From Gammaproteobacteria bacterium (GTDB lineage Bacteria > Pseudomonadota > Gammaproteobacteria > Steroidobacterales > Foliamicaceae), in contig VYBN01000019.1 in assembly GCA_009844425.1 (NCBI GenBank), positions 79,260 through 143,259 on the forward strand: DNA of 64,000 bases, given 5' to 3'. A program made the translations under genes and the position numbers. Below the pieces are notes generated by a model, which saw nothing but the letters and a program-made list of their open reading frames with translations, had not been told where the DNA came from and did not search any database. Below, piece by piece: positions 27,265-53,444 of this stretch. Each line of letters begins with the position of its first letter. The stretch's first letter is position 1.

Positions 27265-28062
27265 ATGAAACGGGCCTACGTATCGACCCAAAGAGGTCAG
27301 ATTCACCTGCGGTATATCGAATCGCGCCTGAAGCCTGCCGGCACGCCCCTCGTTTGCCTTCACCCGTTTCCCTATAGCGGCGCTTTCTTCGAGACGATCG
27401 TGCCGCTATTGAACGAGCGGCGCAGGGTTCTGGCGCCGGATTGCCCCGGATTCGGGGGATCGGACGCACCTCAAGGGATGCTCTCGATGGAGGAACTCGC
27501 GGAAACCGTCCTTGAGGCGCTTGAAGGAGCGCCCGAGGCGCCGGCAGGCCCCGTGGATCTAATGGGCTTTCACAGCGGCTGTCTGCTGGCGGTGGAGATG
27601 GCGCGGCTGGAGCCTTCCCGCGTGCGAAGAATTGCGATCATCGACGTGCCTTATTTCACCGCCGAGGAGCAGAAAGGCCGATACCCGAAGTCCACCGCGC
27701 CGGTTCGGTACGATGGAGACCTGACGAGCCTGGCTGACGCCTGGGAGTTCAGCGTGGCCAGGCGCCTGGACGGCATGCCGTTCAACCGCGCCTTCGGCAA
27801 CTTCGTGGAACTCCTGCGCGCGGGGGAGCGGGCCAACTGGGGATACCACGCCACGCTTACCTACGATTGCGCGCCGCGCTTTAGCGCCGTTCGGCACGAA
27901 ACGCTTGTCGTCGCCAGCCAGTACATGCTCAAGGAACACACGCGCAAGGCCGCGGCCGATATCCCCGACGCCCGCTTCGTCGAGCGCAGGGACGTGACCC
28001 GGGCCGTCATGGAAGAGGGCGCCCCCGCCATCGCGGAAGAAGTAACGGCCTTCCTGGGCTGA
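27265..28062 (+). CDS. Alpha/beta hydrolase
   Basis: VLAPDCPGFGGSD; DLMGFHSGCLLAVEMA nucleophile-elbow-like. Confidence 0.8.
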   Translation: MKRAYVSTQRGQIHLRYIESRLKPAGTPLVCLHPFPYSGAFFETIVPLLNERRRVLAPDCPGFGGSDAPQGMLSMEELAETVLEALEGAPEAPAGPVDLMGFHSGCLLAVEMARLEPSRVRRIAIIDVPYFTAEEQKGRYPKSTAPVRYDGDLTSLADAWEFSVARRLDGMPFNRAFGNFVELLRAGERANWGYHATLTYDCAPRFSAVRHETLVVASQYMLKEHTRKAAADIPDARFVERRDVTRAVMEEGAPAIAEEVTAFLG

Positions 28063-33276: not shown

Positions 33277-33870
33277 TCATCCAGGCTCCATTGGATCAAC
33301 TTTGCTCATGACATTCAATACCAGCGCGCATCTTTGCTCGGTAGCGTTGCAGCGATAGCTGTGCCAGGTGTCCTCGGCCTTGCTGAATATCAGTGCCCGG
33401 TTGGGTTTCCACGGCACTTCGAACCGGTCGCCGCCCGCTTGACTGGAAAACAGAAACGTTCCGAGATTCTCCTCGGGCTTGCAATAGACAACGGCCGATA
33501 ACAGCTTTTCCGGAATATCCGGATGAATGGATTGCCCCAGAGACTTCGGAGTTGTCTGAAATCCCCAGTCGACGTATCTGGCTTGCTCCAGTTTATGCGG
33601 GGCCAACGCTCCCAGCACGTTCAGCAGTATCGTTGCGAGCCTCTCATTGATCGGACGCAGTTTGTCCTCAGTGCAGCGTGTGGTGTTATATACGCACCGG
33701 CCGGACAAGTCGAACGCGCACTTGAGAACCAGAAACCCTCTCCTGGGGTTGAAACGCCGGTCAATGTCGCCAAACCCGCTCTTTACCGTTTCGAATTCTT
33801 CCGGTTCGAAAAATTCGTCGAACACGATATACGGGTTGGTCCATACGTAATCCAACGCGACTTCTTTCAT
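33277..33870 (-). CDS. Fe(II)/2-oxoglutarate-type oxygenase
   Basis: SIHPDIPEKLLSAVVYC (HxD) ... DTWHSYRCNATEQRCAL; 4-nt overlap with the upstream CmcJ-like gene. Confidence 0.65.
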   Translation of the reverse strand: MKEVALDYVWTNPYIVFDEFFEPEEFETVKSGFGDIDRRFNPRRGFLVLKCAFDLSGRCVYNTTRCTEDKLRPINERLATILLNVLGALAPHKLEQARYVDWGFQTTPKSLGQSIHPDIPEKLLSAVVYCKPEENLGTFLFSSQAGGDRFEVPWKPNRALIFSKAEDTWHSYRCNATEQRCALVLNVMSKVDPMEPG

Positions 33871-34886
33871 CTGGCCAGGTTATCCGGAGCGCGGGAGTTA
33901 CGGGACTCCCGCTGATTCGCGGGATCCGCCGCCGCCATTGGCGGCCGCCGCTGCATGCCGTTCCAGTCCACCATCGGCTCCTGACGCCAGGTGGAAACCG
34001 AGCCGTCCAGCCGGACGTTCGGAACTTGCGCCTGGAATGTCGCCTTTCTGCGTTCGCGTTCCCGGTCGGCCCCGGGTAAAACCGCCAGCACGCGCACTTC
34101 GACCGACTCCCGCAACGGCGCGTCCTGCCGGGCGGCCGGGTTGTGGAATGCGGCATGAAAGACCCCGCGCCGCGCCGCGTTTTCCCGGCGCGAGTCGTAT
34201 TGTTTGAAAATCAGCGCCTCGCAAGGCTTCATTCGCGGGAAGTAATACCAGCGCTGACCGGTATTGTGGATCAGGCGGCAATCGATTAGCCGGGTTCGCG
34301 GCTCGGTGCGCCGCAGGCAATCGGCGTAAACGATATCCTCAGCTGCGACGGTGGTCAGATCGCATAGCGCCAGCGGCATCGACTCGATTTCACGGTCAGG
34401 ATTCGTTCCCCGCCAGACGTTGTACAGGGCAAAGTGCCGGCCGTCCGGCACGACCGCAAAATCCTCGATGAAGGGGGTAAAGTCGGAATGGACCACCACC
34501 GCGTAGCGGCCCACGCCCGCGGGGCCTATCACTCTTCCGGCGCGGAACTCGTGCTGCACGGCCTTGGCGGCCTGACATCCGGTGGCGGCCTTGACCAGGT
34601 TCGCGCAATGCTCGTAATAGCGGCTTGTCACTTGGGATGGACTGCTGAAATCCAGACGAATCGGCGCCTCGACCAACTGAAAGCCTTCGGGTTCGATTCC
34701 CGGCGCCCGCTTCAGCGAACGCGCGTCATGGATCCGGATTTGCATGCGGCGAATCGCTTCGCGGCTGCCATCCGGATCGAACGCTTCCTCGCCTGCCAGC
34801 CGCGTGCCCCGATACTTCGGATTGACGAAGACGCTGTCCGAAACTACAAACGGCGCGTCCACCAGCGGCGGCAACCCTCTTCTCAT
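33867..34886 (-). CDS. CmcJ/AsaB-like oxidoreductase, copy A (start 34886 or 34898 preferred over 34964)
   Basis: HSDFT, LYNVWRGTNPDREIESMPLALCD, YYFPRMKPCEALIFKQYDS; paralogous to 46232-47170. Confidence 0.7.
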   Translation of the reverse strand: MRRGLPPLVDAPFVVSDSVFVNPKYRGTRLAGEEAFDPDGSREAIRRMQIRIHDARSLKRAPGIEPEGFQLVEAPIRLDFSSPSQVTSRYYEHCANLVKAATGCQAAKAVQHEFRAGRVIGPAGVGRYAVVVHSDFTPFIEDFAVVPDGRHFALYNVWRGTNPDREIESMPLALCDLTTVAAEDIVYADCLRRTEPRTRLIDCRLIHNTGQRWYYFPRMKPCEALIFKQYDSRRENAARRGVFHAAFHNPAARQDAPLRESVEVRVLAVLPGADRERERRKATFQAQVPNVRLDGSVSTWRQEPMVDWNGMQRRPPMAAADPANQRESRNSRAPDNLAR

Positions 34887-34993
34887 GGTTCGGGACATGG
34901 CCGGGGCCAAATTTCCGGTTTGATTGCCGCGCCAGCTTTGTGTACCGTTGCGTTCCTTGCGCACGGCGAGCGCGCCGGTCGAATTCCGAATCC

Positions 34994-35779
34994 ATGAACG
35001 ATCGTATCGCGGAAAACCCCGGCGACCCGCAGTGGTGGAAGCAGGAGCAGATTCGCTATTGGCGCGAGACGACCGATCATTATCTGAAGTTCGGAACCAC
35101 CATCCAGGCCGGGATTTTTCGAGACGACGGCGCCGCCGGCGAATCCTACGACGACAATAATCGAACCATTGTCAGGCGGTCCGGGCTTCGCGCCGGCCAA
35201 GTGGTGCTTGACGCCGGATGCGGCGTCGGCGGACCGGCCCTGTATGCGGCCTTGCGCGTGCCGGACCTTGAAGTTCATGGAATCACCCTCTCGCCCTATC
35301 AGGCGGAACTCGCCCGGGAGCTGATCGCCGATTCCCCGGCCGCCGGGCGCGTCCACGTGCAGGCGGCCGACTACCACAAGCTGCCGTTTCCGGACCGGAA
35401 ATTCGACTGTGCGCTGTTTCTCGAATCCGCCGGATATTCTTTCGAGCTTGAGAAACTCTTTGCCGAGATCGCCAGGGTGCTGCGCGATGAAGGAAAGGTC
35501 TATATCAAGGACGTGTTTTGCAGGGCCGGAAATTTGACTGTGGAGGAATGGAAGCAGATCGACTTGTTTCGCAGGATCTACGTGCAACCGACGCCGCCCA
35601 TGGAAGAAATGGCTGCGGCACTGGCCGCAACCGGCTTTACGATCAGGTCGATGCTGGACATTACGCCAATGGTTGCGCCCAAGCCCAGGGAAAAACACTT
35701 CGGCCTTCCCCGCTTTCGCACATTTCCCGTTTTGCCCATTCACTGGGGCGAAATCATCGCCGTAAAGACGGCGGGTTAG
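34994..35779 (+). CDS. Class I SAM-dependent methyltransferase
   Basis: VVLDAGCGVGGPALYAA; FDCALFLESAGYS. Confidence 0.88.
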   Translation: MNDRIAENPGDPQWWKQEQIRYWRETTDHYLKFGTTIQAGIFRDDGAAGESYDDNNRTIVRRSGLRAGQVVLDAGCGVGGPALYAALRVPDLEVHGITLSPYQAELARELIADSPAAGRVHVQAADYHKLPFPDRKFDCALFLESAGYSFELEKLFAEIARVLRDEGKVYIKDVFCRAGNLTVEEWKQIDLFRRIYVQPTPPMEEMAAALAATGFTIRSMLDITPMVAPKPREKHFGLPRFRTFPVLPIHWGEIIAVKTAG

Positions 35780-35800
35780 CCTGACGGAAACCACGAGCCA

Positions 35801-36871
35801 GTGGAGCGCTTCCGGGACGTATTGACCGCATTGCGCGGCCGCATTCCCCGATCCCTGCTTGCCGGAGAAGGCTGGGACCGTCTGCTCGAACGGGTGGGGG
35901 ACCTGCCCGCCGCCGCGGCTTGCTCGCTGTGCGGCTTTGAGTTCAGACTGGACGAACCGGCGGCGGCGGCGGACTTTTCGAACCCGGTTTCCGGGGGCCG
36001 GGTGGCGCGCCACTACATCGCCCGCGGCGAAGCGGCGGCGCCGGAATCGGTCGAGGCCTGGCTCGCCGCGCACTTGAAGAACGCATCCGCCACCGATCGT
36101 TGGCTTGAGTCCGTATTGCCGGCCTATGACATTATCGGTGCGCCTGCCGGGCGCCCCGAGCCCCCGGTGGTCTATCTGCGGCTGTTGCCGGGCCGCGAAA
36201 AAGGCGGAATAGCCGCCGGGCCTGCGGCAATAGCGCGCACGGTCGCCGCGGCTTGCGCGCGCGGCGGCAGCGAACCCGAGCGCCGTGCGCTGGCGCGAGC
36301 CCTCGGCGCCTTGCCGGCGGGCGCCAGGCTGGCGTACGTCGCGGCGACCCCCAATCGCGCGCCCAGATCGGTAAGGCTGCTGGCTGCGAACATCGGCGCC
36401 CGTGAAGTCGGGCCTTTGCTTGAGCGGCTGCAATGGCGGGGATCGATCGCCGCCGTTGACCGCTTGCTGTCCGGCATGGCGGATCTTTGCGGGCGCTTCC
36501 TGCTCCTCTTCGACATCAACGAGGACGGCGCATTGCCGCGGATCGGATTTGAAATGCACGCGCTGCGGGAGCGCGTGACGAACGACCGGGCTTTGTTCTC
36601 GGCCTGGCTGATCAGTTCGAAAAACGACTGGAAACCTGTGATCCGGCGCCTGGTTGACCGGGGCTGGTGCCTGCCTTCCAAAGCCGAAGGCCTGCTTTCC
36701 TGGCCCCGCCTGCGAACGGTTTTTGGCGAGGCCGGGGCGTTTCAGCTCTATATGGGAATCAACCACGTCAAGTTGTCGGTCGAGGGAGAACTCCTGCGGG
36801 CCAAGGCCTACGGGGGCTTACGCCTGTTGCCGCTGGATCAGTTCGCGAAAAAGGCCTTCCTCGGCGGCTAA
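35801..36871 (+). CDS. Uncharacterised RiPP-associated protein, copy A
   Basis: 356 aa; strong end-to-end similarity to 45225-46286 (RSLLAG..WDRLL.RVGD; ALPRIGFE; CLPSKAEGLLSWP; MGINHVKL....LRAKAYGGL). Confidence 0.6.
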   Translation: MERFRDVLTALRGRIPRSLLAGEGWDRLLERVGDLPAAAACSLCGFEFRLDEPAAAADFSNPVSGGRVARHYIARGEAAAPESVEAWLAAHLKNASATDRWLESVLPAYDIIGAPAGRPEPPVVYLRLLPGREKGGIAAGPAAIARTVAAACARGGSEPERRALARALGALPAGARLAYVAATPNRAPRSVRLLAANIGAREVGPLLERLQWRGSIAAVDRLLSGMADLCGRFLLLFDINEDGALPRIGFEMHALRERVTNDRALFSAWLISSKNDWKPVIRRLVDRGWCLPSKAEGLLSWPRLRTVFGEAGAFQLYMGINHVKLSVEGELLRAKAYGGLRLLPLDQFAKKAFLGG

Positions 36872-39724
36872 TTCCTCAAAGCGGCCTGCCTGAACCACCC
36901 GGCCCGCCTGCAGCACATAAATCCGGTTCGCCCCGCGTATGGTGGAAAGCCGATGCGCAATCACCAGGCGCGTGCTGGTGGACTCCTCTATCGCCCGCAT
37001 CGTTCGGGACTGGCTTTTTGTGTCCAGCCAGCTTGTGGGTTCGTCCAGAAAGATAATGCGGGGTTTGCGGATCAGCGCGCCGGCGATACGGATTCGCTGG
37101 TTCTGTCCGCCGGAGAAAGTCGCCGAATTCTCGTCCACCGGCGTGTGCAGGCCCATCGGCATGGCGCGGATTTCGTCTTCTACGCCGGCAAGCCGGGCGG
37201 CGCGCCAGGCGTCGTTTTCGCTCAATTCCGAGTCGTAGCCGATGATATTGTCGAGAACGGTGCCGCTTTGCAGCAAGCCATCCTGCGGAACGACGCCGAT
37301 TTGCTTTCGCACCGCGGAGACATCGAGCCGCTCGAGGTCCTGGCCATCGAAGTACACCGCCCCGGCGCTTGGCTTTTCCAGGCCAAGGGCGAGCCGGAGC
37401 AAGGTGCTCTTGCCGGCGCCGGATTCGCCCACGATCGCAATGAACTCGCCGGGCTTCGCGTAAACAGTTACCTCCCGCAAGGTCTCGGCATTCTCCGAAT
37501 ATCCGAAGCTCACCTTGTCGAGCAGGATTTCCCCTTGCAGCGTCCTGTGCGCGCCACGCGCCACGCCGGACTCGGGCTCGGCGGCCAGAATCGGGCGCAC
37601 CTGCTCGCAGGCCGGCCTGACGAAAGCGACGGAACGGGCTGAATTGCCCAGCATGACGAGGGCCATGAACAAGGTCATGGCCGCGGTTTGAACCGCAAGA
37701 AAGCCGCCGGTGCCAAGGCCGTCTGCCCCCTGTGCAATCACCGTGGCGAACAGCGCGGCGCTGCCGAGGAAAGGAACTGCGGCCGCGATCGCGACAATCC
37801 GTTCGCTTAAAGCGGCCTGCTGGATTTCCGAGTGTTTGTGCTCGCGGTAGCGCCTTGCCCAGGCGGCAAAAGCCATGTCCTCGGCGCCGGTGGCGCGCAG
37901 CTTCGCAATTCCGGTCAGGAACTGATGCAATTCGCCCAGAAGCTGGCGTGAAGACCGCAAGTAGCGGCGCTGCTGTTCAACCATGCTGGCGCAGTAGCCG
38001 AAGGTTATTGCGAGCACAGCAAAAGTCAGCGCGGCAACCGTCCAGCCGAGCGCCGCGTCGTAGAAAAACAGCAGGCCGAGCGCTGGCAGGGCGAACAGCA
38101 TGGATAAAGCCGCATCGGCCGTCACTCCGGCCACATGGTTCCTGATATCCTGAAAGATCATGGCTCTCGCCGCGAGTTCGCCGGCGCTGAAGCGGCGAAA
38201 AAACTTAAGCCGTAGACGCAGCAGACGGTCCTGGATGGCAGCGCCGATGCGCGCGGCAAGGCGCCCTTCAAGGCGCATGAGAGCCATCCCCCGCAGCACC
38301 CGGGCCAGTGACGCCGTAAGCGCGATTCCGGACAGAACGGCGGAGAACTGGATCAGTGCGATCGTGTCTCCGGCGGGAATGACCTCAGCGACCAGCACAT
38401 TCACCGCGATTGCGGGCGCCAGCGCCAGCAGTCCCGCGCCGAGACCGAAAGCCGTGAGCCGGAGGATCGCCGCAGTCATTGGCGCCACTCCGGCGCGAAG
38501 CAGATCGCGCATCGTGGCGGGTCCATCGCTGGGCAGCGCGGGATAGAGCAGGCAGGCGTCGCGAAGCCCGGCGCCGGTGTTGGCATTGGCGGGCATGGAC
38601 TTGCCGGTTTCCGGATCCACCACGCGGTAGCGGCCGGCAAGGCCGGGCAGCAGCGCTACGGGTTGGCCGCCGCCGCGCCGGAAGGCCAGCATCGCGCCGC
38701 TGTCGCCAAGCCACCAGCGATCCTCCACCGTTAATCGCACGCTTCGCCGGCGCAGCACCGACGCCTCGCAGTAATCGTCCAGCGAAGGCAAGCCTTCGCC
38801 GGACACGCCCGGCGCGCGGATATCGAGCCCTTCATGCCGGGCGATGATTCGCAAGGCTTTATCGAGGGGCGTATGGCTTTCGGAATGCGCGCGAAAGCTC
38901 AGCAAGTCCGCCAGCGCTTTTCTGGCCATGGATTTCTCGCGGCGGCGCAAGGCGGCCTGGGCCACCTGCAGATTCGCGTCATCCACCAGCAGCAGGCGGC
39001 GATGCAGCGATTCGGCGCCCAGGGCGAGGCGGTGAAACTCAGGCAAGCCTGCGTCAAGCAACAGGCCGGCGCCAAGCTCTTGCGATGAGCGGCACACAAC
39101 GCCCGCGGTTGCATGCAGCTTGATCCAGCTATCCCGCGTGGCCGGCATCAGGCCCGGCGGCCGGGAGGCGGAGTCGGCCAGGTCGAGGAAAGTGGCGTCC
39201 AGACGATCGGCGGCCAGCCACACCACGCCCTGCTCGGCGGATGAGATTCCATCTCCCGCCTCGCTCCCGGGACCGAGCCGCAGTTCAATGCGGGGGCGGC
39301 TTTCGACTTCGTCCGCCACTGCGGCGGCAAGATCTTCGATCCACGCGTCCACCTGGGCCATGACTTCGGGCGCGAGGCCGCCGGCTCCTTTGCCGCGCAC
39401 GGCTTCCTCACGCAATTCCGCAAGCGGCAGGCATCGCAGGCTTGTGGCTTGAACGCCCTTGGCGACGAGCAGCATCGAATGCCCGGACTGATCCGCTCCG
39501 AATGCCAGCCGGCCCTTGTCCAGGCGCGCAACATGCCGGTACGGCGCCTCCATCCGGCCGTCGGCAAGCTCCGTTGCCAGAATATCAATCGCGCCTTCCT
39601 CGACGAACCAGACGAGACCGGGATCGTTCAGCTTGACCGGGCGGTTGCCCGCTGCGGCATGGCGCTCGCCCATGGTTGCGAAGAAATCGGCCAGCCGGCC
39701 TCCCGAGTGATTCTCATTCCCCAT
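36818..39724 (-). CDS. NHLM-type bacteriocin ABC transporter (permease/ATPase, no peptidase domain)
   Basis: 968 aa; AGVAPMTAAILRLTAFGL; GESGAGKSTLLRLALGLEKP; ATFSGGQNQRIRIAGALIRKPRIIFLDEPTSWLD. Confidence 0.87.
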   Translation of the reverse strand: MGNENHSGGRLADFFATMGERHAAAGNRPVKLNDPGLVWFVEEGAIDILATELADGRMEAPYRHVARLDKGRLAFGADQSGHSMLLVAKGVQATSLRCLPLAELREEAVRGKGAGGLAPEVMAQVDAWIEDLAAAVADEVESRPRIELRLGPGSEAGDGISSAEQGVVWLAADRLDATFLDLADSASRPPGLMPATRDSWIKLHATAGVVCRSSQELGAGLLLDAGLPEFHRLALGAESLHRRLLLVDDANLQVAQAALRRREKSMARKALADLLSFRAHSESHTPLDKALRIIARHEGLDIRAPGVSGEGLPSLDDYCEASVLRRRSVRLTVEDRWWLGDSGAMLAFRRGGGQPVALLPGLAGRYRVVDPETGKSMPANANTGAGLRDACLLYPALPSDGPATMRDLLRAGVAPMTAAILRLTAFGLGAGLLALAPAIAVNVLVAEVIPAGDTIALIQFSAVLSGIALTASLARVLRGMALMRLEGRLAARIGAAIQDRLLRLRLKFFRRFSAGELAARAMIFQDIRNHVAGVTADAALSMLFALPALGLLFFYDAALGWTVAALTFAVLAITFGYCASMVEQQRRYLRSSRQLLGELHQFLTGIAKLRATGAEDMAFAAWARRYREHKHSEIQQAALSERIVAIAAAVPFLGSAALFATVIAQGADGLGTGGFLAVQTAAMTLFMALVMLGNSARSVAFVRPACEQVRPILAAEPESGVARGAHRTLQGEILLDKVSFGYSENAETLREVTVYAKPGEFIAIVGESGAGKSTLLRLALGLEKPSAGAVYFDGQDLERLDVSAVRKQIGVVPQDGLLQSGTVLDNIIGYDSELSENDAWRAARLAGVEDEIRAMPMGLHTPVDENSATFSGGQNQRIRIAGALIRKPRIIFLDEPTSWLDTKSQSRTMRAIEESTSTRLVIAHRLSTIRGANRIYVLQAGRVVQAGRFEELAAEEGLFRELIQRQQA

Positions 39725-41873
39725 GGATCAACCTGCGATAGATGCTGTCGTGGGCATAGAGCTCTTCATGGGCGCCTTGCTCGACGATGCGGCCCCGGTC
39801 CATGACGACGATAAGGTCGGCGTCGCGGATCGTGCTCAGGCGATGGGCGACGATCAGACAGGAGCAGCCCCGCCGGCGGATGCGGTCGTCGATCAGCAAC
39901 TCGGTTGCCGGGTCGAGCGCGCTGGTCGCTTCATCCAGAATCAGCAGCGATGGATTGCTGACCAAAGCCCGGGCGATCTCGAGCCGGGCGCGCTGGCCGC
40001 CGCTGAAATTGCGTCCGCCTTCTTCCACCATAGACTCGTATCCCGCCGGCCGGCTGATGATGACCTCGTGAATCGCGGCGTCCCTCGCGGCGGCGGTCAC
40101 GTGCCGCTCCGGAGTCGTTGTGTCCCACATGGTGAGATTGTTGCGTATGCTGGCGGCGAACAGCACGGGTTGCTGATTGACGATTGAAACCGAGCGGCAG
40201 AACACTTCCCTGGGAATGTCGGCGAGCGGATGCCCGTCGAACAGCACCTCGCCGGACCAGGGCTGATGCAAACCCACCGCGAGAAGCGCCAGAGTGGATT
40301 TGCCGGAACCGCTGGCCCCCACCACCGCCACGCGTTGCCCAGGCTCAATCGTCAAATTGAAGTCTTCCACGAGTGGCGAGCGGTTACGCTGGAAACCGAA
40401 GGTGACAGCGCGCAATTCCAGCTGGCCGACCAGCCGCAGCCGGCCGTTTAGCGCTCGGACCCGGCCTTGCGAGCCGGCATCATCTTTCATCAGGGAAGCT
40501 GACTGCGGCGAGTTGAAAACATCGTCCATTCTCGCCAGGTCCGCCTCCAGCGTCGCCAGCAGATCGGAGAACTGGCCAATGCTGGAGACCGGCCGCAGGA
40601 AATTGCCGGCCAGCACATAGAATCCCATCAAGGCGCCAATGCCGATATCCCCGGACATGGCGCGCCAGCCGCCAAGGCCGAACACCACCGCCGCCGCGAA
40701 CAGTTGAAACATTTGCGGCAGCGCAGCCGTCACATGGCCAAGCTCCACGAACTTTTGCCTGGCGCCCAGTTCGCGAGCCTGTCTGCCGCTCCAGCGCGAA
40801 AAGAAATCGTTCTCCCTGGCCGTTGACTTCAAGGTCTCGATCATTCGCAGGCCTGCCGCGCTCATGCCGGTGAAGATCCCCTGCTCGCGCCGCACCTGAT
40901 GATTCCGGTCCCGGCGCAGACGGGTCAGCATATGAATCGAAACCACGCAAGCAGCGCCAAGGCCGGCCACGGTCAGTCCCAGCAGAAAATCGAAAGCAAG
41001 CATCGCCGCCAGGAAGACCGCGCTCATCGCCAGATCGACGCCGAGCCGCACGAGTTGGCCGGCGCCCGCGTCGGCAACCTGATCGATCAGCCGCATGCGC
41101 ACGGCCAGATCTGCTGCAAAACGCTTATAAAAGAACCGCATGGGAAGCCGAAGCAGGTGATCCAGATAGCGGTCCGATTGGTCGGTGGACACGCGCAGGA
41201 CAAGGTCATTCAGGGAACGCATCTGCAGCCAGGTGAAGAGGAAGGCAAGTCCGCCGGCGGCTGCCATGGCCACGGTCAGAATGATGCCCGCGTCCGTCTG
41301 CTGCGCCAGCAGCACCCGGTCAACGAACAAGGCGAGCAGAACAGGCAAGGCGAGTGAGATCAGGGCGAGCAGCAAGCCGAAAACAGTTGCGCGGCTCAAT
41401 AATGCGCGGTAATTGCGCAGCCAGGGCCACAATCGCCGCAGCACGCCCGGCCGCGCGCCGTAGGCGCTGAATCCGGCGTCCGGCTCAAGCAACAGGCCGA
41501 CGCCGGTGAAGTCGCGATTAAAGGTTTGGGCATCAACCACCCGGTGCCCCTCGGCGGGATCGTTAAGGTAATAGCGCCCCCGCCCGATTCCCTCGAGCAC
41601 GACGAAGTGCCTGAACCCCCAGAACAGGATCATGGGCATCGGCAGACGGGCCAGGCCACTGATCTGACTCGACCAGCCGGTCGCCTTAAGGCCATAATTC
41701 CTGGCGGCGCGCGCCAGATTCTCTAGTGTCGTGCCGTCGCGCCCCACGCCGCACTTCTCACGCAGTTCTTCGAGGGGCGCCCAACAACCGAAATGCGCAA
41801 GCACGATGCCAAGGCATGCGGCGCCGCAGTCGGTGGCCTCCAACTGCATGACCAGTGGGGTGCGGCCGCGCAT
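39714..41873 (-). CDS. NHLM-type C39 peptidase/permease/ATPase exporter
   Basis: C39 motifs QLEATDCGAACLGIVLAHFG / FRHFVVLEGI / YYLNDPAEG; GASGSGKSTLALL; RNFSGGQRARLEIARAL. Confidence 0.92.
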   Translation of the reverse strand: MRGRTPLVMQLEATDCGAACLGIVLAHFGCWAPLEELREKCGVGRDGTTLENLARAARNYGLKATGWSSQISGLARLPMPMILFWGFRHFVVLEGIGRGRYYLNDPAEGHRVVDAQTFNRDFTGVGLLLEPDAGFSAYGARPGVLRRLWPWLRNYRALLSRATVFGLLLALISLALPVLLALFVDRVLLAQQTDAGIILTVAMAAAGGLAFLFTWLQMRSLNDLVLRVSTDQSDRYLDHLLRLPMRFFYKRFAADLAVRMRLIDQVADAGAGQLVRLGVDLAMSAVFLAAMLAFDFLLGLTVAGLGAACVVSIHMLTRLRRDRNHQVRREQGIFTGMSAAGLRMIETLKSTARENDFFSRWSGRQARELGARQKFVELGHVTAALPQMFQLFAAAVVFGLGGWRAMSGDIGIGALMGFYVLAGNFLRPVSSIGQFSDLLATLEADLARMDDVFNSPQSASLMKDDAGSQGRVRALNGRLRLVGQLELRAVTFGFQRNRSPLVEDFNLTIEPGQRVAVVGASGSGKSTLALLAVGLHQPWSGEVLFDGHPLADIPREVFCRSVSIVNQQPVLFAASIRNNLTMWDTTTPERHVTAAARDAAIHEVIISRPAGYESMVEEGGRNFSGGQRARLEIARALVSNPSLLILDEATSALDPATELLIDDRIRRRGCSCLIVAHRLSTIRDADLIVVMDRGRIVEQGAHEELYAHDSIYRRLIHGE

Positions 41874-41884
41874 GATGCTAACCG

Positions 41885-42052
41885 CTAATTCAGAAAGGCA
41901 GCGGCGGCAACCAGAACGAAAAGGATGGATACTCCAAAAGCCAGCAGGAAAACTCTTTCGAGCGGCGCCGTGACTCGCAGCAGATCATCCAGCGCTTCCG
42001 GTTGCGCGCTGCGGATCAGCGCTTCGCGGCGATAAATGCTTCTGTCAGACAC
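41885..42052 (-). CDS. Mini NHLM/HlyD-like protein: only the N-terminal cytoplasmic tail and one TM helix (55 aa, GTG start)
   Basis: (V)SDRSIYRREALIRSAQPEALDDLLRVTAPLERVFLLAFGVSILFVLVAAAAFLN*; resembles the N-terminus of NHLM secretion (HlyD-family) proteins; 11 nt upstream of the C39 exporter. Confidence 0.65.
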   Translation of the reverse strand: MSDRSIYRREALIRSAQPEALDDLLRVTAPLERVFLLAFGVSILFVLVAAAAFLN

Positions 42053-42173
42053 GGCAAGTACTTGCCTCCAGCGGAAATTTGGCGAAGGCCGACAGGCGCC
42101 GTCAACTTGTTTGACGGCCTAAATAGTGCGATGGCGACCGGCCGCAACCGGTGGCCAGCCGCCAGTCGTATGC

Positions 42174-42437
42174 TTAGTACGAATCGTTGGTCGGAGCGAA
42201 GCCACCCGCCGCCCCACGCAGTTCATCGTCGGACAGGCGGCTGCCGGCAGGCGGCAAGACCAAATGAAATTCGGTCGCGCTTTCTTCATGCACATTAATG
42301 GAAAACCCTTCCGGCACGGTCAGGCCGCTGGCTTCCTTGATTGCCTCGCGCGGGTTTTCGAGCAGCCGGCCGCGGTAAGCTTCATCCTCATCCGCCTTGG
42401 CACGGATCATGTCTTCAATTTCCATAACCGTCTTCAT
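42174..42437 (-). CDS. RiPP precursor with NHLP leader (core after GG: FAPTNDSY)
   Basis: MKTVMEIEDMIRAKADEDEAYRGRLLENPREAIKEASGLTVPEGFSINVHEESATEFHLVLPPAGSRLSDDELRGAAGG|FAPTNDSY. Confidence 0.87.
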   Translation of the reverse strand: MKTVMEIEDMIRAKADEDEAYRGRLLENPREAIKEASGLTVPEGFSINVHEESATEFHLVLPPAGSRLSDDELRGAAGGFAPTNDSY

Positions 42438-42455
42438 ATTCTTTTCCCCCGGAAG

Positions 42456-42677
42456 ATGACAATGTATTCATACTATATCAGGAATCACCGCTCTTTTGGC
42501 TTGAACGCCGCGCGGAACGCCGCGATCCGGGAAGGGATCGGCGTCGAGTTGCCGGAAGACTTCAATTTCGTCGCCCACGAGGACTATGCGCAGGCCGCGC
42601 ATCTGGTGTTGCCGCCCTCGGCCGGGATAACCGACGCCTGGCTCGATCAGGTGGCTGGCGGCGGTTGTGTCAACTGA
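42456..42677 (+). CDS. Short-leader NHLP-like precursor or relic (tail GCVN after GG)
   Basis: MTMYSYYIRNHRSFGLNAARNAAIREGIGVELPEDFNFVAHEDYAQAAHLVLPPSAGITDAWLDQVAGG|GCVN; lacks the AKADEDExFRxxLL helix. Confidence 0.6.
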   Translation: MTMYSYYIRNHRSFGLNAARNAAIREGIGVELPEDFNFVAHEDYAQAAHLVLPPSAGITDAWLDQVAGGGCVN

Positions 42678-42782
42678 AGGCATGGGGGGTTGAATCGAAC
42701 ATCGACAGGGAATAAGCTTGTTGGCTGTTGAAGTCTGGAAAGGCATTGCTTGTGCCGATTACCGGGAATGAGGAGAACAGAC

Positions 42783-43043
42783 ATGAACACACAATCGCAG
42801 ATCCAGGAACAAATTCTTGCCAAGGCTGACGAGGATGAACAATTCCGCGCCCGGCTCCTGAAGGATCCGAAGGCGGCCATCAAGGACGCAACCGGACTTT
42901 CGGTTCCGGATGGCATCAACATCCGTGTCCTTGAAGACAACGCCACCGACTTTCATCTGATCCTGCCGCCGGCAGGCCGGAATCTGTCGGATCAGGAAAT
43001 CAGCGGTGTGGCCGGCGGTATTGGTGACATCGACACCTGGTGA
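42783..43043 (+). CDS. RiPP precursor with NHLP leader (core after GG: IGDIDTW)
   Basis: MNTQSQIQEQILAKADEDEQFRARLLKDPKAAIKDATGLSVPDGINIRVLEDNATDFHLILPPAGRNLSDQEISGVAGG|IGDIDTW. Confidence 0.9.
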   Translation: MNTQSQIQEQILAKADEDEQFRARLLKDPKAAIKDATGLSVPDGINIRVLEDNATDFHLILPPAGRNLSDQEISGVAGGIGDIDTW

Positions 43044-43045
43044 AC

Positions 43046-43165
43046 ATGGTCCTGCTGCCGGCAGGCCGGAATCGGTCTGACCGGGAAACCACCGGTCTGA
43101 CCGGTGGCTCAGATCCGGTGTCCCCGGTGGATGGGGACATCGACACCTGGTGGGTGTGGCGATGA
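43046..43165 (+). pseudogene. Degenerate codon-aligned duplicate of the precursor 3' half (leader end plus core)
   Basis: MVLLPAGRNRSDRETTGLTGGSDPVSPVDGDIDTWWVWR*; matches ILPPAGRNLSDQEISGVAGG-IGDIDTW of the upstream gene. Confidence 0.7.
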
Positions 43166-43697
43166 CTCCGGTGGTCATCGTTCGCCGTGCCCAGCAGGCC
43201 TGACGCTTCAGGCTCGACAACAAGAGGCGTCGTCGTTTCAGGGCCTTGCATCTGCCGATCGTCTCCCCTCCCCGCTAGTCGTTACGCAGGCCGCTGCATG
43301 GGCGCCAGCCGTCGGCGGCAGCTTGGTTGGCCGACGCCAACACTTACGGAACGGACTCGTGAGACGCCCCGGAGGAACAGCCCACCGTTTCCTTGAAGCG
43401 GATGCAGGAGCATTCGGTCGCCTGCAAGTCCGGCCAGGAGTTTTCTCCGCTCCGTGCCGCGGTGCCTCGACCGGCTCCGTAGCGGCAGGGCATGGCCCCC
43501 TCGCCGGCATCCGCGGCACCGCGCTGGTGGCTCCATGCGCGCCCTGCCATCGCCCCGTCACTCCCCAGCGGTACGGAATGCGGCCTTGTCTGTGTCAGGC
43601 ACATTGGCCCTTTGGCGCGAGTGCGCCGATCCGATTGCCGAATTGCGACAGGCTCGTGACCTGCGAGCCGATAGGCTGAACCCGCCAGAAACAAGAC

Positions 43698-45188
43698 ATG
43701 CATAACGATAGCATCAGGAAACTCGTGATCGCCGGAGGTGGCACTGCGGGATGGATGGCCGCGGCAATGTTTGCGCACCATTTCGGCAAGACTCTGGACA
43801 TTGTCCTCGTGGAATCCGATGAGATCGGAACTGTCGGTGTGGGCGAAGCGACGATTCCACCGCTGCATCTTTTCCATAAGTACATGAACGTGAGTGAACC
43901 GGAGTTCCTCCGCGCCGTTCAGGGTACTTTCAAGCTTGGAATTTTCTTCGAGAACTGGCGGAACCTGGGCGAGAACTACTTCGGTTCCTTTGGATGGGCC
44001 GGAAAGGAACGCTGGGCGGTGGGCTTTCAGAATTACTGGCTGAGGGGGCGCCTCCTGGGGCTGGCCCGGGGCTACGGAGAATACTGTCTGGAAACATCCG
44101 CGGCTTTACGCAACAGGTTTGCCATTAGCCTGAACACCGTCTTGAACTACGCCTACCACATCGACGCCGGACTCTACGGACAATTCTTGCGAGGGATTGC
44201 CGAGGCGGCCGGGGTCATTCGCCATGAAGGAAGAATTGACCAGGTGGAACAGGATCCGGCCAATGGGTTCATCACCGGCCTCCGCCTGCAGTCTGGACAA
44301 CGGGTCATGGGTGACCTGTTTATCGATTGCACCGGCTTTCGAGGGCTCCTGATCGAGCAGACCCTGAATGTCGGTTTCGATGACTATGGCGACTGCCTGT
44401 TTTGTGACAGTGCAATCGCTGTACCCACCGCAGCGCCCGGACCCCTGCATCCGTACACTCGCGCGACAGCCCATGAAGCAGGTTGGCAATGGCGCATTCC
44501 GTTGCAGCACCGGGTTGGAAACGGCATGGTATTCAGTTCCCAACACTGGTCCGACGACGAGGCCCGGGCGCGATTGCTTGATAATGTCCAGGGCGCCGTG
44601 CTCGCCGAGCCCCGGCTGATCCGTTTCAGGGCCGGCCAGAGGCGGAGGTATTGGCACAAGAACTGCGTTGCCCTGGGGCTGGCCTCAGGCTTCATGGAAC
44701 CGCTGGAATCAACCAGCATCCACCTCATTCAGCGCGGCGTCACCCGCTTGGTCCAGATGTTTCCCGACAAGGGAATTCGCGAACCCGCCATCGCCGAATT
44801 CAACGCCAAGATGCAGGACGAGATTGACAATATCCGGGACTTTCTCGTCTTCCACTACCATGTGACCGACCGGTCGGATACGCCTTTCTGGCGACAGTGC
44901 CAGACCATGGACATTCCCGACTCCCTGACGCACCGAATCGAGTTGTTTCGACAAACGGGCCGGATTGCCTGGAACCCGGGTGAACTGTTCGGCACGACGT
45001 TCTGGGTGCAGCTCATGCTCGGGCAGGGCCTGATTCCGGAACAGTATCACCCTATTGTCAATGCGATGAGCAAGGACGATCTCGGGAAGTATCTGGCCGG
45101 CATCCACCGACAGGTTGAAGAGCAGGTCGATCGGCTTCCTGACCACCAGCAGTTCATTGACGATTACTGCAAGGCGCCACCCGTCTGA
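43698..45188 (+). CDS. FAD-dependent tryptophan halogenase
   Basis: GGGTAGWMAAAMFA (FAD); GEATIPPL; GTFKLGIFFENW (catalytic Lys region); WQWRIPLQ (WxWxIP); GFMEPLESTSIHLIQ. Confidence 0.93.
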   Translation: MHNDSIRKLVIAGGGTAGWMAAAMFAHHFGKTLDIVLVESDEIGTVGVGEATIPPLHLFHKYMNVSEPEFLRAVQGTFKLGIFFENWRNLGENYFGSFGWAGKERWAVGFQNYWLRGRLLGLARGYGEYCLETSAALRNRFAISLNTVLNYAYHIDAGLYGQFLRGIAEAAGVIRHEGRIDQVEQDPANGFITGLRLQSGQRVMGDLFIDCTGFRGLLIEQTLNVGFDDYGDCLFCDSAIAVPTAAPGPLHPYTRATAHEAGWQWRIPLQHRVGNGMVFSSQHWSDDEARARLLDNVQGAVLAEPRLIRFRAGQRRRYWHKNCVALGLASGFMEPLESTSIHLIQRGVTRLVQMFPDKGIREPAIAEFNAKMQDEIDNIRDFLVFHYHVTDRSDTPFWRQCQTMDIPDSLTHRIELFRQTGRIAWNPGELFGTTFWVQLMLGQGLIPEQYHPIVNAMSKDDLGKYLAGIHRQVEEQVDRLPDHQQFIDDYCKAPPV

Positions 45189-45224
45189 TGCCACGCCTCC
45201 CGACGATCACTGAGGAAGAAAGGC

Positions 45225-46286
45225 ATGAACGCAATGACGCAACTTCGGGACCTGCTCGAGGCACTGCGGCCACAGATTCCCGATTCCTTGCTCGCTGGAC
45301 GGGGTCGGGACCGACTGTTGCTGCGGGTCGGAGATTTTCCCGCAGCCGTCGCGGCGAACCTGTGCATCTTCGAACTGAGACTCGACGACCCGGAACCGGC
45401 TGCTGACTTCTCGCTCACCGTGACCTCCTCACAGGTCCCGCACCGCTACCTGGCGGCCACCGACGAGGCAGCGGCGACATCCCTGAAAGCTTCGCTCGAC
45501 GCCTATCTGGCCAGCAAGCCGGAAGCGTACAGATGGCTGATGCTCGAATACGATCTCATTGACATCCCCGAAGAGCGGAAAGCGGCTCCGGCGATCAATC
45601 TGCGATCGGACGCTTCGCTCACCCCGGGCGGCGCGATATTCGAACCGGCTCGCCTTGCCGGCACGCTCAGTCGTGTCTTTGGCCGGAGTGACGCGCGACA
45701 TGAACAGCGCGCGTTATCCCGCACATTTGCTGTGCTGCCCTCCGGCGCAGTAGTCACATTCGCCGCCGCCTTCCCCGAACGCACGCCCCGATCCGTCAGG
45801 CTGGTTGTCGCGGAGGTTTCGGCAGCTCAGGTGGGGCCATTTCTCGATCGACTCCGGTGGCCGGGTTCGATACCCACAGTTCTGCACTTCCTGTCGGAAC
45901 TCTACGATGTCTCCAACCGCTTCATGATGGCATTCGATGTTGCCCCTGAAGGCGCCCTGCCGCGACTGGGTTTCGAAATCTACCCGACTGCCGCCGGCGA
46001 CCGGGATTTTCGAGGCTTGCTCTCGGCCTGGCACACGACAAGGAGCTACCATTGGCGCGGCCTGATAGATCGGCTGGTGGAAATGGGATTGTGCTTGCAG
46101 GCGAAGGCCGACGGGCTTCTGTCCTGGCCGAAGCAACGCATCCTCTACGGGGCGAACGGAACCTGCGGGCTGCGCATGGGTATCAATCACATCAAGATCG
46201 TGATGGACGCGGAGCACTTGCGGTCAAAAGCCTACGCAGGTCTGCAGTGCTTCCCGCTGGCGCCCCAGTCGACCATTCTCTCGTAG
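45225..46286 (+). CDS. Uncharacterised RiPP-associated protein, copy B
   Basis: 353 aa paralog of 35801-36871; PDSLLAGRGRDRLLLRVGD, ALPRLGFE, CLQAKADGLLSWP, MGINHIKI....LRSKAYAGL. Confidence 0.6.
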   Translation: MNAMTQLRDLLEALRPQIPDSLLAGRGRDRLLLRVGDFPAAVAANLCIFELRLDDPEPAADFSLTVTSSQVPHRYLAATDEAAATSLKASLDAYLASKPEAYRWLMLEYDLIDIPEERKAAPAINLRSDASLTPGGAIFEPARLAGTLSRVFGRSDARHEQRALSRTFAVLPSGAVVTFAAAFPERTPRSVRLVVAEVSAAQVGPFLDRLRWPGSIPTVLHFLSELYDVSNRFMMAFDVAPEGALPRLGFEIYPTAAGDRDFRGLLSAWHTTRSYHWRGLIDRLVEMGLCLQAKADGLLSWPKQRILYGANGTCGLRMGINHIKIVMDAEHLRSKAYAGLQCFPLAPQSTILS

Positions 46287-47170
46287 GGCCAGGATGACGG
46301 CCTGCCATCCGGATAGGAGGTCGGAATCTCGGCCTGGTACCTTGACTTCCTTTCTGGCGGATCGTCTTCAGCAAAGACCGCAGCGACCCGGGCTTCGACG
46401 GAACGTCGCCTCGGCGCATCGTCCCGGGTCGTCGGATCGTTGAAGGCCGTGTGAAAGGTCACCCGGGAGGCCGGATCCTCGATGCGGGAATCGTACTGCC
46501 GGAAGATCAGCGCCTCGCCAGGCTCCATTCCCGGAAAGAAGTGCCAGCACTGGGCCGTGTCATGAACGAGATGGTACAGCACCACGCGGGTGCTGGGCTC
46601 GGTCAGGCGCCGTCCATCGGAACTTATCATGTCGCCGGGAGAGACGGTCGCAGGGTCGCACATGGCAAGGGGCTTCGACTCGATCGCCCGCAGGGGGTCC
46701 GTGCTGCGCCATACGTTGTACACGCCGAAGTGACGGCGGTCCGGAATGTCAAGCACGTCCTCGACATACGGGGTCAGGTCTGCATGGGCCTTTTCCGCAT
46801 AGGTCCCGGCGCCTCCGGGCCAGACCGGCGCGCCGACCCGGAACTCGTGCTGCATGGTCCGTGCGGAAAGGCATCCTGTCGCCGCCATGACCAGCTCCGC
46901 GCAATGGTCGTAGAAGCGGGAGACAACGCTGTCGTGATCGCCGTAGTCGATGTCAATCGGCGCATCCACGAGCTCGAACCCCGTACGGCTGACGGTGGGC
47001 GCCTGTGCGAGGGCACGTGCGTCGTGAACCCGGATCGGCTTCATTACCATCATTTTCGAATGATCGGCGCCTTCCCCATGGTACGGCAGCCGAAATCCCC
47101 GGCATCCCGGCTTTACGAAGAGACTCTCCGAAACGACGAACGGCGTGTCCGGAAAGAGTGGAATGCCCAT
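46232..47170 (-). CDS. CmcJ/AsaB-like oxidoreductase, copy B
   Basis: MGIPLFPDTPFVVSESLFVKPGCRG; HADLTPYVEDV; YNVWRSTDPLRAIESKPLAMCD; HFFPGMEPGEALIFRQYDS. Confidence 0.7.
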   Translation of the reverse strand: MGIPLFPDTPFVVSESLFVKPGCRGFRLPYHGEGADHSKMMVMKPIRVHDARALAQAPTVSRTGFELVDAPIDIDYGDHDSVVSRFYDHCAELVMAATGCLSARTMQHEFRVGAPVWPGGAGTYAEKAHADLTPYVEDVLDIPDRRHFGVYNVWRSTDPLRAIESKPLAMCDPATVSPGDMISSDGRRLTEPSTRVVLYHLVHDTAQCWHFFPGMEPGEALIFRQYDSRIEDPASRVTFHTAFNDPTTRDDAPRRRSVEARVAAVFAEDDPPERKSRYQAEIPTSYPDGRPSSWPYERMVDWGASGKHCRPA

Positions 47171-51686: not shown

Positions 51687-52502
51687 CTAGAAGGGGGTGT
51701 CGCCGGAGACGGAGGCGCGCTGCATCTTGCGGTGCTGCGGCCAGTAGTCGGCCAGCGCGTAATGGGAAGTGCAGCGATTGTCCCAGATCGCCAGCGTGCC
51801 TGGGCGCCAGCGCAGCCGCACGCAGAATTCGGGAGTTTCGATGTGCCGGAAAAGGAACTCCAGCAGGTTTTCGCTTTCCTGCGGAGTGAAGCCGTTGATG
51901 AAATTGGTGAAGAAGCGGTTGACGAACAGCGACTTGCGGCCGGTTTGCGGGTGGGTCCTCACCAGCGGATGCGTGGCCGGCGGAAATATTTTCTTGAATT
52001 CCTCTATCGCTTCCTCGGCGTTGTCCCAGGTCCTTACGATCGGCTCGTAGTAGCCGAGTATGGTGTGGGTGCAAGTCAGGCTGCCGAGTATCCGCTTCAT
52101 TTCGTCCGACAGGGATTCGTAGGCGCTGTAGTTGCAGGCCCACATCGTGTCGCCGCCGCCGTCGGGCACCACCAGCGCGTGCAGCATGTGCAGCGCCGGA
52201 GGTTGCGCCAGGCCGGTCATGTCCTGGTGAAAGGTGTTGAGCGTGGGCGGCTTGCTCTTGTCGTTCTCCAGAAACAGCAGTTCCTGGTACTTGTGCGCCA
52301 GCGCCGGCTGAATGAAGCTTTCGCCGAATCGCCGGGAAAACTCCACGAGTTCTTCTCCGTTCAGGCCCTGATCCCGGAAAAACAGAACTCTGTGTTCCAG
52401 TATTCCTTTTTCTATCTCGTCGATGACGGCCTGTGCAAGGTCCGGGGAAAGCTCGATGCCCGAAACCTCGGCGCCCAGTTTTGCGACTCGCTCAAAATTC
52501 AT
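51687..52502 (-). CDS. TauD/TfdA-family 2OG dioxygenase
   Basis: FHQDMTGLAQPP (HxD), WDNRCTSHYALADYWPQHRKMQRASV (distal H, R). Confidence 0.9.
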   Translation of the reverse strand: MNFERVAKLGAEVSGIELSPDLAQAVIDEIEKGILEHRVLFFRDQGLNGEELVEFSRRFGESFIQPALAHKYQELLFLENDKSKPPTLNTFHQDMTGLAQPPALHMLHALVVPDGGGDTMWACNYSAYESLSDEMKRILGSLTCTHTILGYYEPIVRTWDNAEEAIEEFKKIFPPATHPLVRTHPQTGRKSLFVNRFFTNFINGFTPQESENLLEFLFRHIETPEFCVRLRWRPGTLAIWDNRCTSHYALADYWPQHRKMQRASVSGDTPF

Positions 52503-52505
52503 GAT

Positions 52506-53444
52506 TCATTGATCCAGAAATTCGCGGGAAACGTTGGCCAGCCGGTCCGCACCCACATCGAACGCCCCGTGGCTCAGTTCGGGCATTTCCACTACCCGCA
52601 CATCCTTCAGCAGTCTGGCGGCTTCGCGGGACTGTTCCTGGAGATTGCCGTGGGTGTTGGGCACCAGCACGGGCTGGCGCACCAGAGGAAGGCGCTCCTC
52701 GGCCGGATAACTGAACACGCTGTGATAGGCCCACCATGCGTAAGGGCCCGACTGCAGGTGATCGACAAAGTGCGATGCGCCGCGTTGCAACGATACATCG
52801 GGGTGCCGATCGGTCACCCAGAAGCGCCACACCTCCATGGCGTTCGAGCCATCTTCCTTGAGTTCGCTCGGCCGCGCGTACTGCTCATAAAGCGCCTCGC
52901 GCTCCTCGCCAACGCGAAAGGGGATGCCGGGCAGCACCAGGCGGCGCACCAGATCCGACCGGACAATGGCCAGTTCCGCGGCGATGAAGGTTCCCGTGTG
53001 GTAGCCGATCACGTCCACGGCGCCTTCGCCATCCGCCCCGTAGCCGAGTGCGTCCAGCGTATCGGCCGCAGCGCCGGCCAGTTCGCTCATCGGCTGCGGT
53101 TCGGGCGGCGGATCCGATCGGCCGTAGCCCGGCGTATCCATCGCCATGACCCGCCGGTCGGCGCTCATCACCAGCACGTAATCGCGATAGAAGTCCCCCG
53201 ACAGAGCCGTGGGATGAAAGCACATCAACGGCGTGCGCCGTGCGGTTTCATCAAGGGATTCGGCTATATGCACATGCACCTGGCCGAAGCGCCCGTCCAC
53301 ATAGCGCCGGCGGATCCGCCGGCGCGCCGCAACGTGGCCGTCGGCGCCGGCAAGCGCCCACGGCCAGGCTAACGCCACAGGCGCCGAGATCAGTCCCTGC
53401 ACTATCCTCCGGCGGACGAGGCCGCCGGCTTCCCGTATTGCCAT
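52506..53444 (-). CDS. Alpha/beta hydrolase
   Basis: MAMDTPGYGRSDPP; DVIGYHTGTFIAAELA; similar to the hydrolase at 27265-28062. Confidence 0.8.
   Translation of the reverse strand: MAIREAGGLVRRRIVQGLISAPVALAWPWALAGADGHVAARRRIRRRYVDGRFGQVHVHIAESLDETARRTPLMCFHPTALSGDFYRDYVLVMSADRRVMAMDTPGYGRSDPPPEPQPMSELAGAAADTLDALGYGADGEGAVDVIGYHTGTFIAAELAIVRSDLVRRLVLPGIPFRVGEEREALYEQYARPSELKEDGSNAMEVWRFWVTDRHPDVSLQRGASHFVDHLQSGPYAWWAYHSVFSYPAEERLPLVRQPVLVPNTHGNLQEQSREAARLLKDVRVVEMPELSHGAFDVGADRLANVSREFLDQ

Follow-up and report, generated by a model that had tools for sequence, protein, structure and literature searches.

The described precedent for halogenation of a proteusin is SrpI, which installs a bromine on the C-terminal Trp of the proteusin SrpE (core LCCCW) (PMC10858898, PMC10286304). 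SrpI needs both this C-terminal Trp and the attached proteusin leader, in which an LXXXXL motif before the boundary is required; it accepts penta- to octapeptide cores, and its activity is abolished once the Trp is moved inward (PMC10286304, PMC10858898). Another group of halogenases is that of BrvH and Xcc4156, which have open sites, act on indoles and not on free Trp, and favour bromide (PMC5945002, PMC7336383). Neither enzyme had a known natural substrate at the time of description, and a peptide substrate had already been proposed for the group (PMC5945002, PMC7336383).

We analysed a stretch of 64,000 nt of contig VYBN01000019.1 (GCA_009844425.1), here called the window, and give all coordinates as positions within it. 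A precursor and a halogenase of the BrvH/Xcc4156 group lie side by side in a gene set that we term type A, which is listed here with the exporter genes and the precursor remnants.

36818 to 39724, minus strand: NHLM exporter subunit 2; TIGR03797, 668.5 bits (cut-off 709.4)
39714 to 41873, minus strand: NHLM exporter subunit 1 with C39 peptidase domain; TIGR03796, 850 bits (cut-off 853.3)
41885 to 42052, minus strand: short membrane protein resembling an HlyD N-terminus, 55 aa; kept short in type-A and type-B loci
42525 to 42677, plus strand: incomplete NHLP remnant with the end GGGCVN; 29.1 bits (under the cut-off) over profile positions 30–77
42783 to 43043, plus strand: NHLP/proteusin precursor (type A); matches to TIGR03793 and 8tb1, single C-terminal Trp
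43041 to 43165, plus strand: decayed duplicate of part of the precursor 3' end, which it matches at 82% identity across 39 bases
43698 to 45188, plus strand: flavin-dependent halogenase, BrvH/Xcc4156 group (HAL-A); Pfam Trp_halogenase, 606.6 bits
45225 to 46286, plus strand: X353, no curated family name, predicted ABBA (aromatic prenyltransferase) fold; AlphaFold2 and PDB fold matches
46232 to 47170, minus strand: CmcJ/NvfI-family oxidoreductase (CmcJ_a); NF041278, 161.5 bits (cut-off 80)

The precursor ORF encodes 86 aa (MNTQSQIQ...LSDQEISGVAGGIGDIDTW, then the stop), with a leader ending ...LSDQEISGVAGG and the predicted core IGDIDTW. It scored 76.7 bits against the TIGR03793 leader_NHLP model (curated cut-off 50.9), and since the match spans profile positions 1–77, the GG boundary lies where it is expected. 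The best PDB match was the MprE7-TH1 proteusin chimera 8tb1 (E 2.9e-16). With a Gly-Gly at the boundary AGG/IGDIDTW, a short core and an NHLM exporter, the gene and its surroundings are, by sequence, a proteusin (NHLP) RiPP cluster. The initial annotation had predicted cleavage after AGG to release IGDIDTW, with the terminal Trp as its only aromatic residue; the residues and their place were confirmed, and W86, the last residue of the C-terminal end SGVAGGIGDIDTW, is the sole Trp of the whole precursor. The LXXXXL-like position before the boundary reads L-SDQE-I in the window and has I, M or V at its second place in orthologs. The core contains two Asp, whereas the core trials with SrpI were made without charged cores (PMC10286304). 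A repeat search of 42000–46000 returned no tandem repeats.

Between the precursor and the halogenase, about 650 bp hold no identifiable intact gene and only the decayed duplicate at 43041-43165. The duplicate is common to three orthologous loci (G099, G103 and G115), where the alignment revealed an indel and differing stops. An ORF within it (43046-43165, MVLLPAGRN...DIDTWWVWR) was considered as a leaderless second precursor and rejected, as the indel and the different stops relative to the three orthologs indicate decay. Its start coincides with the stop codon that ends the first copy, giving a GTGA overlap.

HAL-A (496 aa) is encoded by the first intact gene downstream of the precursor. The annotated FAD site, catalytic Lys region and WxWxIP motif of a halogenase were confirmed by the 606.6-bit Pfam match and by a complete set of motifs: GGGTAGW at 13, GEATIP at 49, KLGIFF at 79 (catalytic Lys), CTGF at 211, WQWRIP at 263 and EPLESTSIHL at 334. 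HAL-A is 55% identical to Xcc4156 (6y1w) over 489 columns with one gap, and the alignment is gapless at the residues matching 149-157 and 428-438, the two loop regions that in Trp halogenases shut the active site. In its high identity, its short loops around the substrate and its full set of FDH motifs it fits the BrvH/Xcc4156 group. Identity to an SrpI ortholog was 26%, on a separate long branch, and by sequence HAL-A is a member of the open-site BrvH/Xcc4156 group and not an SrpI. The dN/dS values between the window and its orthologs (0.17-0.26) indicate that the window gene is under purifying selection.

In an IQ-TREE phylogeny, the halogenases of type-A loci and those of type-B loci (described below) each formed one clade, and together they formed one clade (support 100/97), with the window halogenase inside the type-A clade (100/100). 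Next to this RiPP-linked clade is a clade (99/98) in which both Pfam-scanned loci (G040 and G104) carry a TonB-dependent receptor, the G040 locus also carrying cupin_8 and GH3 genes; no precursor was seen in these TonB-receptor halogenase loci. A scan of viral contigs with the halogenase gave one partial relative only, which was uninformative.

A scan of genome contigs with the X353 family gave 79 loci. Many of these are in metagenome-assembled genomes whose bin names we take to be those of sponge projects. Genome-wide searches, made with the halogenase and with the NHLP model and combined with ORF maps, gave nine loci including the window in which HAL-A is the first intact gene downstream of a TIGR03793 precursor, on the same strand (G000, G097, G098, G099, G100, G103, G104, G115 and G116; the halogenase is cut by the contig end in G098 and G100). 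The HAL-A proteins of the paired loci are 89-94% identical to that of the window, and their genomes are titled Alpha- and Gammaproteobacteria. All nine cores end in TW: IGDIDTW in five, and IGDINTW, IGDIHTW, SISDIDTW and GFGDIDTW in one each. The positions of the exporter and oxidoreductase genes vary around the kept pair, and the type-A set is on a contig of its own in several genomes. Because it recurs in orthologous clusters of several other genomes, the pairing goes beyond chance, although the close kinship of the type-A orthologs means that the nine loci do not count as independent events. Among the loci compared, no type-A cluster without Trp was seen, so loss within type A gives no test of the link between Trp and halogenase. 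Other type-A loci carry CmcJ_a as well if their contig is long enough to include it.

A tenth type-A precursor, in G114, ends in Trp (core GDIDINITW), and no halogenase was detected in that genome. This orphan precursor (L245, around 1964-2227) lies between apparent mobile-element genes with only a CmcJ fragment nearby, and the cluster has apparently been broken up by mobile elements.

The initial annotation had further proposed that the halogenase modifies the C-terminal Trp of the precursor. This is supported in silico by the adjacency of the genes, the invariant Trp, purifying selection, the published peptide-substrate hypothesis and the SrpI/SrpE precedent, and we estimate the probability that HAL-A halogenates W86 at about 0.78. 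The most likely form of this reaction, judged by sequence and analogy, is leader-guided bromination. As HAL-A is of the BrvH/Xcc4156 type, free Trp is its expected non-substrate and bromide its expected halide, and by this analogy bromide is more likely than chloride. Observations that speak against leader-guided bromination of W86 are the I, M or V (not L) at the second motif position, the two Asp of the core and the G114 genome, in which no halogenase was detected. Moreover, with HAL-A only 26% identical to the SrpI ortholog, the leader recognition of SrpI is not transferable to it.

Alternatively, the halogenase may act, as MibH does (PMC10858898, PMC12615548), on a core that has already been cleaved or modified, for instance by prenylation or oxidation, and independently of the leader. 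Co-conservation of X353 and CmcJ_a would fit such an order, and the halogen would be placed on the same Trp, so that this alternative overlaps with leader-guided bromination. However, the peptidase is on the exporter, and leader removal is thus probably coupled to export and later than the FADH2-dependent steps in the cytoplasm; the proteusin precedent SrpI depends on the leader (PMC10286304, PMC10858898). We consider halogenation of a leader-free core unlikely, though it keeps some weight.

A substrate outside the cluster, with the halogenase acting on a small indole or another metabolite and standing beside the precursor by chance or co-regulation, appears improbable. The nearest non-RiPP relatives of HAL-A (65-66% identical) are indeed found near TonB receptors, in one locus with cupin and sugar-use genes. 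Yet adjacency to the precursor is kept in nine loci from two proteobacterial classes while the exporter and oxidoreductase change places, the RiPP-linked halogenases form a clade of their own, and the enzyme group rejects free Trp (PMC5945002, PMC7336383).

The window holds a second proteusin set (type B), which spans 33277-42437 and is without a halogenase.

33277 to 33870, minus strand: P197, type-B-linked and present in type-B loci; weak match to a putative hydroxylase (9blq, E 0.025 only)
33867 to 34964, minus strand: CmcJ/NvfI-family oxidoreductase (CmcJ_b, type B); NF041278, 181.1 bits
35801 to 36871, plus strand: X356 (type B), a paralog of X353 with 45-46% identity to it
42174 to 42437, minus strand: second NHLP precursor (type B), core FAPTNDSY, no Trp; TIGR03793, 67.5 bits

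Type-B clusters elsewhere carry their own halogenase, HAL-B, with the cores WAPTSSSY and WAPTSDSY. WAPT cores were found in four of four type-B cases with HAL-B and in two of six without it, near-copies included; these sequences do no more than suggest that HAL-B goes with Trp in type-B cores. Cores of other type-B relatives begin with I, F or W. That the window halogenase should serve FAPTNDSY or its Tyr, and not IGDIDTW, is very improbable despite these HAL-B clusters, given that it belongs to the type-A clade and adjoins the type-A precursor, that the window type-B core has no Trp, and that the type-A set stands alone on its contig in several genomes.

For X353, the gene after the halogenase, neither Pfam nor NCBIfam gave a hit above its curated cut-off, and the PDB gave none by sequence. 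AlphaFold2 models reached a pTM of 0.83 (11 sequences) and 0.88 (41 sequences), and for both models all PDB fold matches at E<=1e-3 were ABBA/DMATS prenyltransferases (15/15 for the second model), among them AmbP1, DMATS1, CloQ, EpzP and FgaPT2, with TM-scores of only about 0.38-0.58. Across the 41 sequences the barrel residues E50, D61, Y109, R192, H322, K324, K335 and Y337 are invariant or nearly so; in the X353 family D61, R192, H322, K324 and Y337 are invariant and E50 near-invariant. The conserved E50, R192, K324 and Y337 are compatible with prenyl transfer to an aromatic acceptor. X353 adjoins the halogenase in type-A loci, its dN/dS between the window and orthologs is 0.34-0.49, and relatives also occur in srp-type clusters. 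A predicted ABBA-fold protein in the gene string means that the Trp may be altered in other ways besides halogenation, and we see about even odds that X353 prenylates this peptide.

Both exporter subunits have TIGR03796 and TIGR03797 as their best matches, each slightly under the equivalog cut-off. The C39 residues are present (Cys in DCGAAC, His in FRHFVV, Asp in NDPAEG), and the domain is predicted from sequence to cut directly behind the GG and to export the core. The 55-aa HlyD-like ORF matches only the N-terminus of an HlyD-like ORF of about 300 aa in two loci (L042 and L047). We considered it as a broken gene and rejected this, since many loci keep it in its short form. A pair of related alpha/beta hydrolase genes borders the region (27265-28062 and 52506-53444), and a TauD-family oxygenase gene lies at 51687-52502.

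For the pathway as a whole, we infer halogenation itself, leader dependence, bromide preference, prenylation, the order of steps and the product as follows. The LSDQEI helix would take the role of the LXXXXL recognition motif, and HAL-A, guided by the leader, would halogenate the C-terminal Trp of the precursor, with bromide favoured. X353 would probably also act on the peptide, with the Trp as its likeliest site because it is the sole aromatic residue in the core, and another step, probably an oxidation, would be added by the CmcJ/NvfI-type enzyme. Cleavage after GG and export of the product would then fall to the C39 domain of the NHLM exporter.

The same genome holds a separate srp cluster on contig C48, with the cores LCCCW and MCCCGI and an SrpI ortholog (C48:153835-155109) that we recognised by Y102, P105-S109 and Y110, residues named for SrpI. 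A protein of this cluster matches the position of the srp YcaO and is, by our own identification, a putative YcaO. Among the precursors read, SrpI was present in 18 of the 20 genomes whose cores include LCCCW and in none of the 11 that lack it; these genomes are related, and the sequences suggest a pattern in which SrpI follows the core Trp in srp clusters, not independent events. In the srp-type clusters L041 (3382-4851), L043, L045, L046 and L048, an NHLP-like domain is fused to a protein of about 400 aa.

A broader proposal is that the BrvH/Xcc4156 group includes peptide brominases and that in this proteusin family one C-terminal Trp is the target of both a BrvH-type halogenase and a prenyltransferase with the ABBA fold, from a family lacking a curated name, yielding a bromo-prenyl-Trp peptide in parallel to and independently of the SrpI system of the same genome. 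We hold this tentatively, with the odds somewhat against it. The conserved pair, with its seven-residue, one-Trp core, makes the peptide-substrate guess for the BrvH/Xcc4156 group testable. If true, the same bacteria would have recruited halogenases of two distantly related lineages to act on the final Trp of proteusins, and the family with the predicted ABBA fold in type-A and srp clusters would be a candidate peptide prenyltransferase family. We did not find a description of the cluster among the open-licence papers searched, and an earlier description elsewhere is possible.

Compared with srp, the type-A cluster shares the NHLP leader, the Gly-type boundary, a short Trp-ending core, a flavin-dependent halogenase, the NHLM exporter and an X353-like gene. 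It differs in its Cys-free core (IGDIDTW against LCCCW), in the added CmcJ/NvfI oxidoreductase and in a halogenase of another lineage (26% identity); no match to the srp YcaO cyclodehydratase was found in the type-A loci searched. PalQ, which modifies the conserved C-terminal Trp of the NHLP precursor PalX, sets a precedent for prenylation at this position by another fold, as PalQ belongs to the isoprenoid-synthase superfamily and X353 has a predicted ABBA fold; the described PalX cluster comprises three genes and no halogenase (PMC10853753). The predicted fold of X353 resembles that of ABBA/DMATS prenyltransferases (AmbP1, DMATS1, PagF), and many of the top matches are indole or Trp enzymes, but X353 has no detectable sequence similarity to them. 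MibH, the NAI-107 lanthipeptide chlorinase, is likewise a peptidyl Trp halogenase of RiPP biosynthesis, but chlorinates a leader-free, modified lanthipeptide core (PMC10858898, PMC12615548). Finally, HAL-A has the same short active-site loops and the same motifs as BrvH and Xcc4156; no RiPP setting is reported for these two in the accessible parts of their descriptions (PMC5945002, PMC7336383), whereas the HAL-A gene is fixed beside a Trp-ending precursor.
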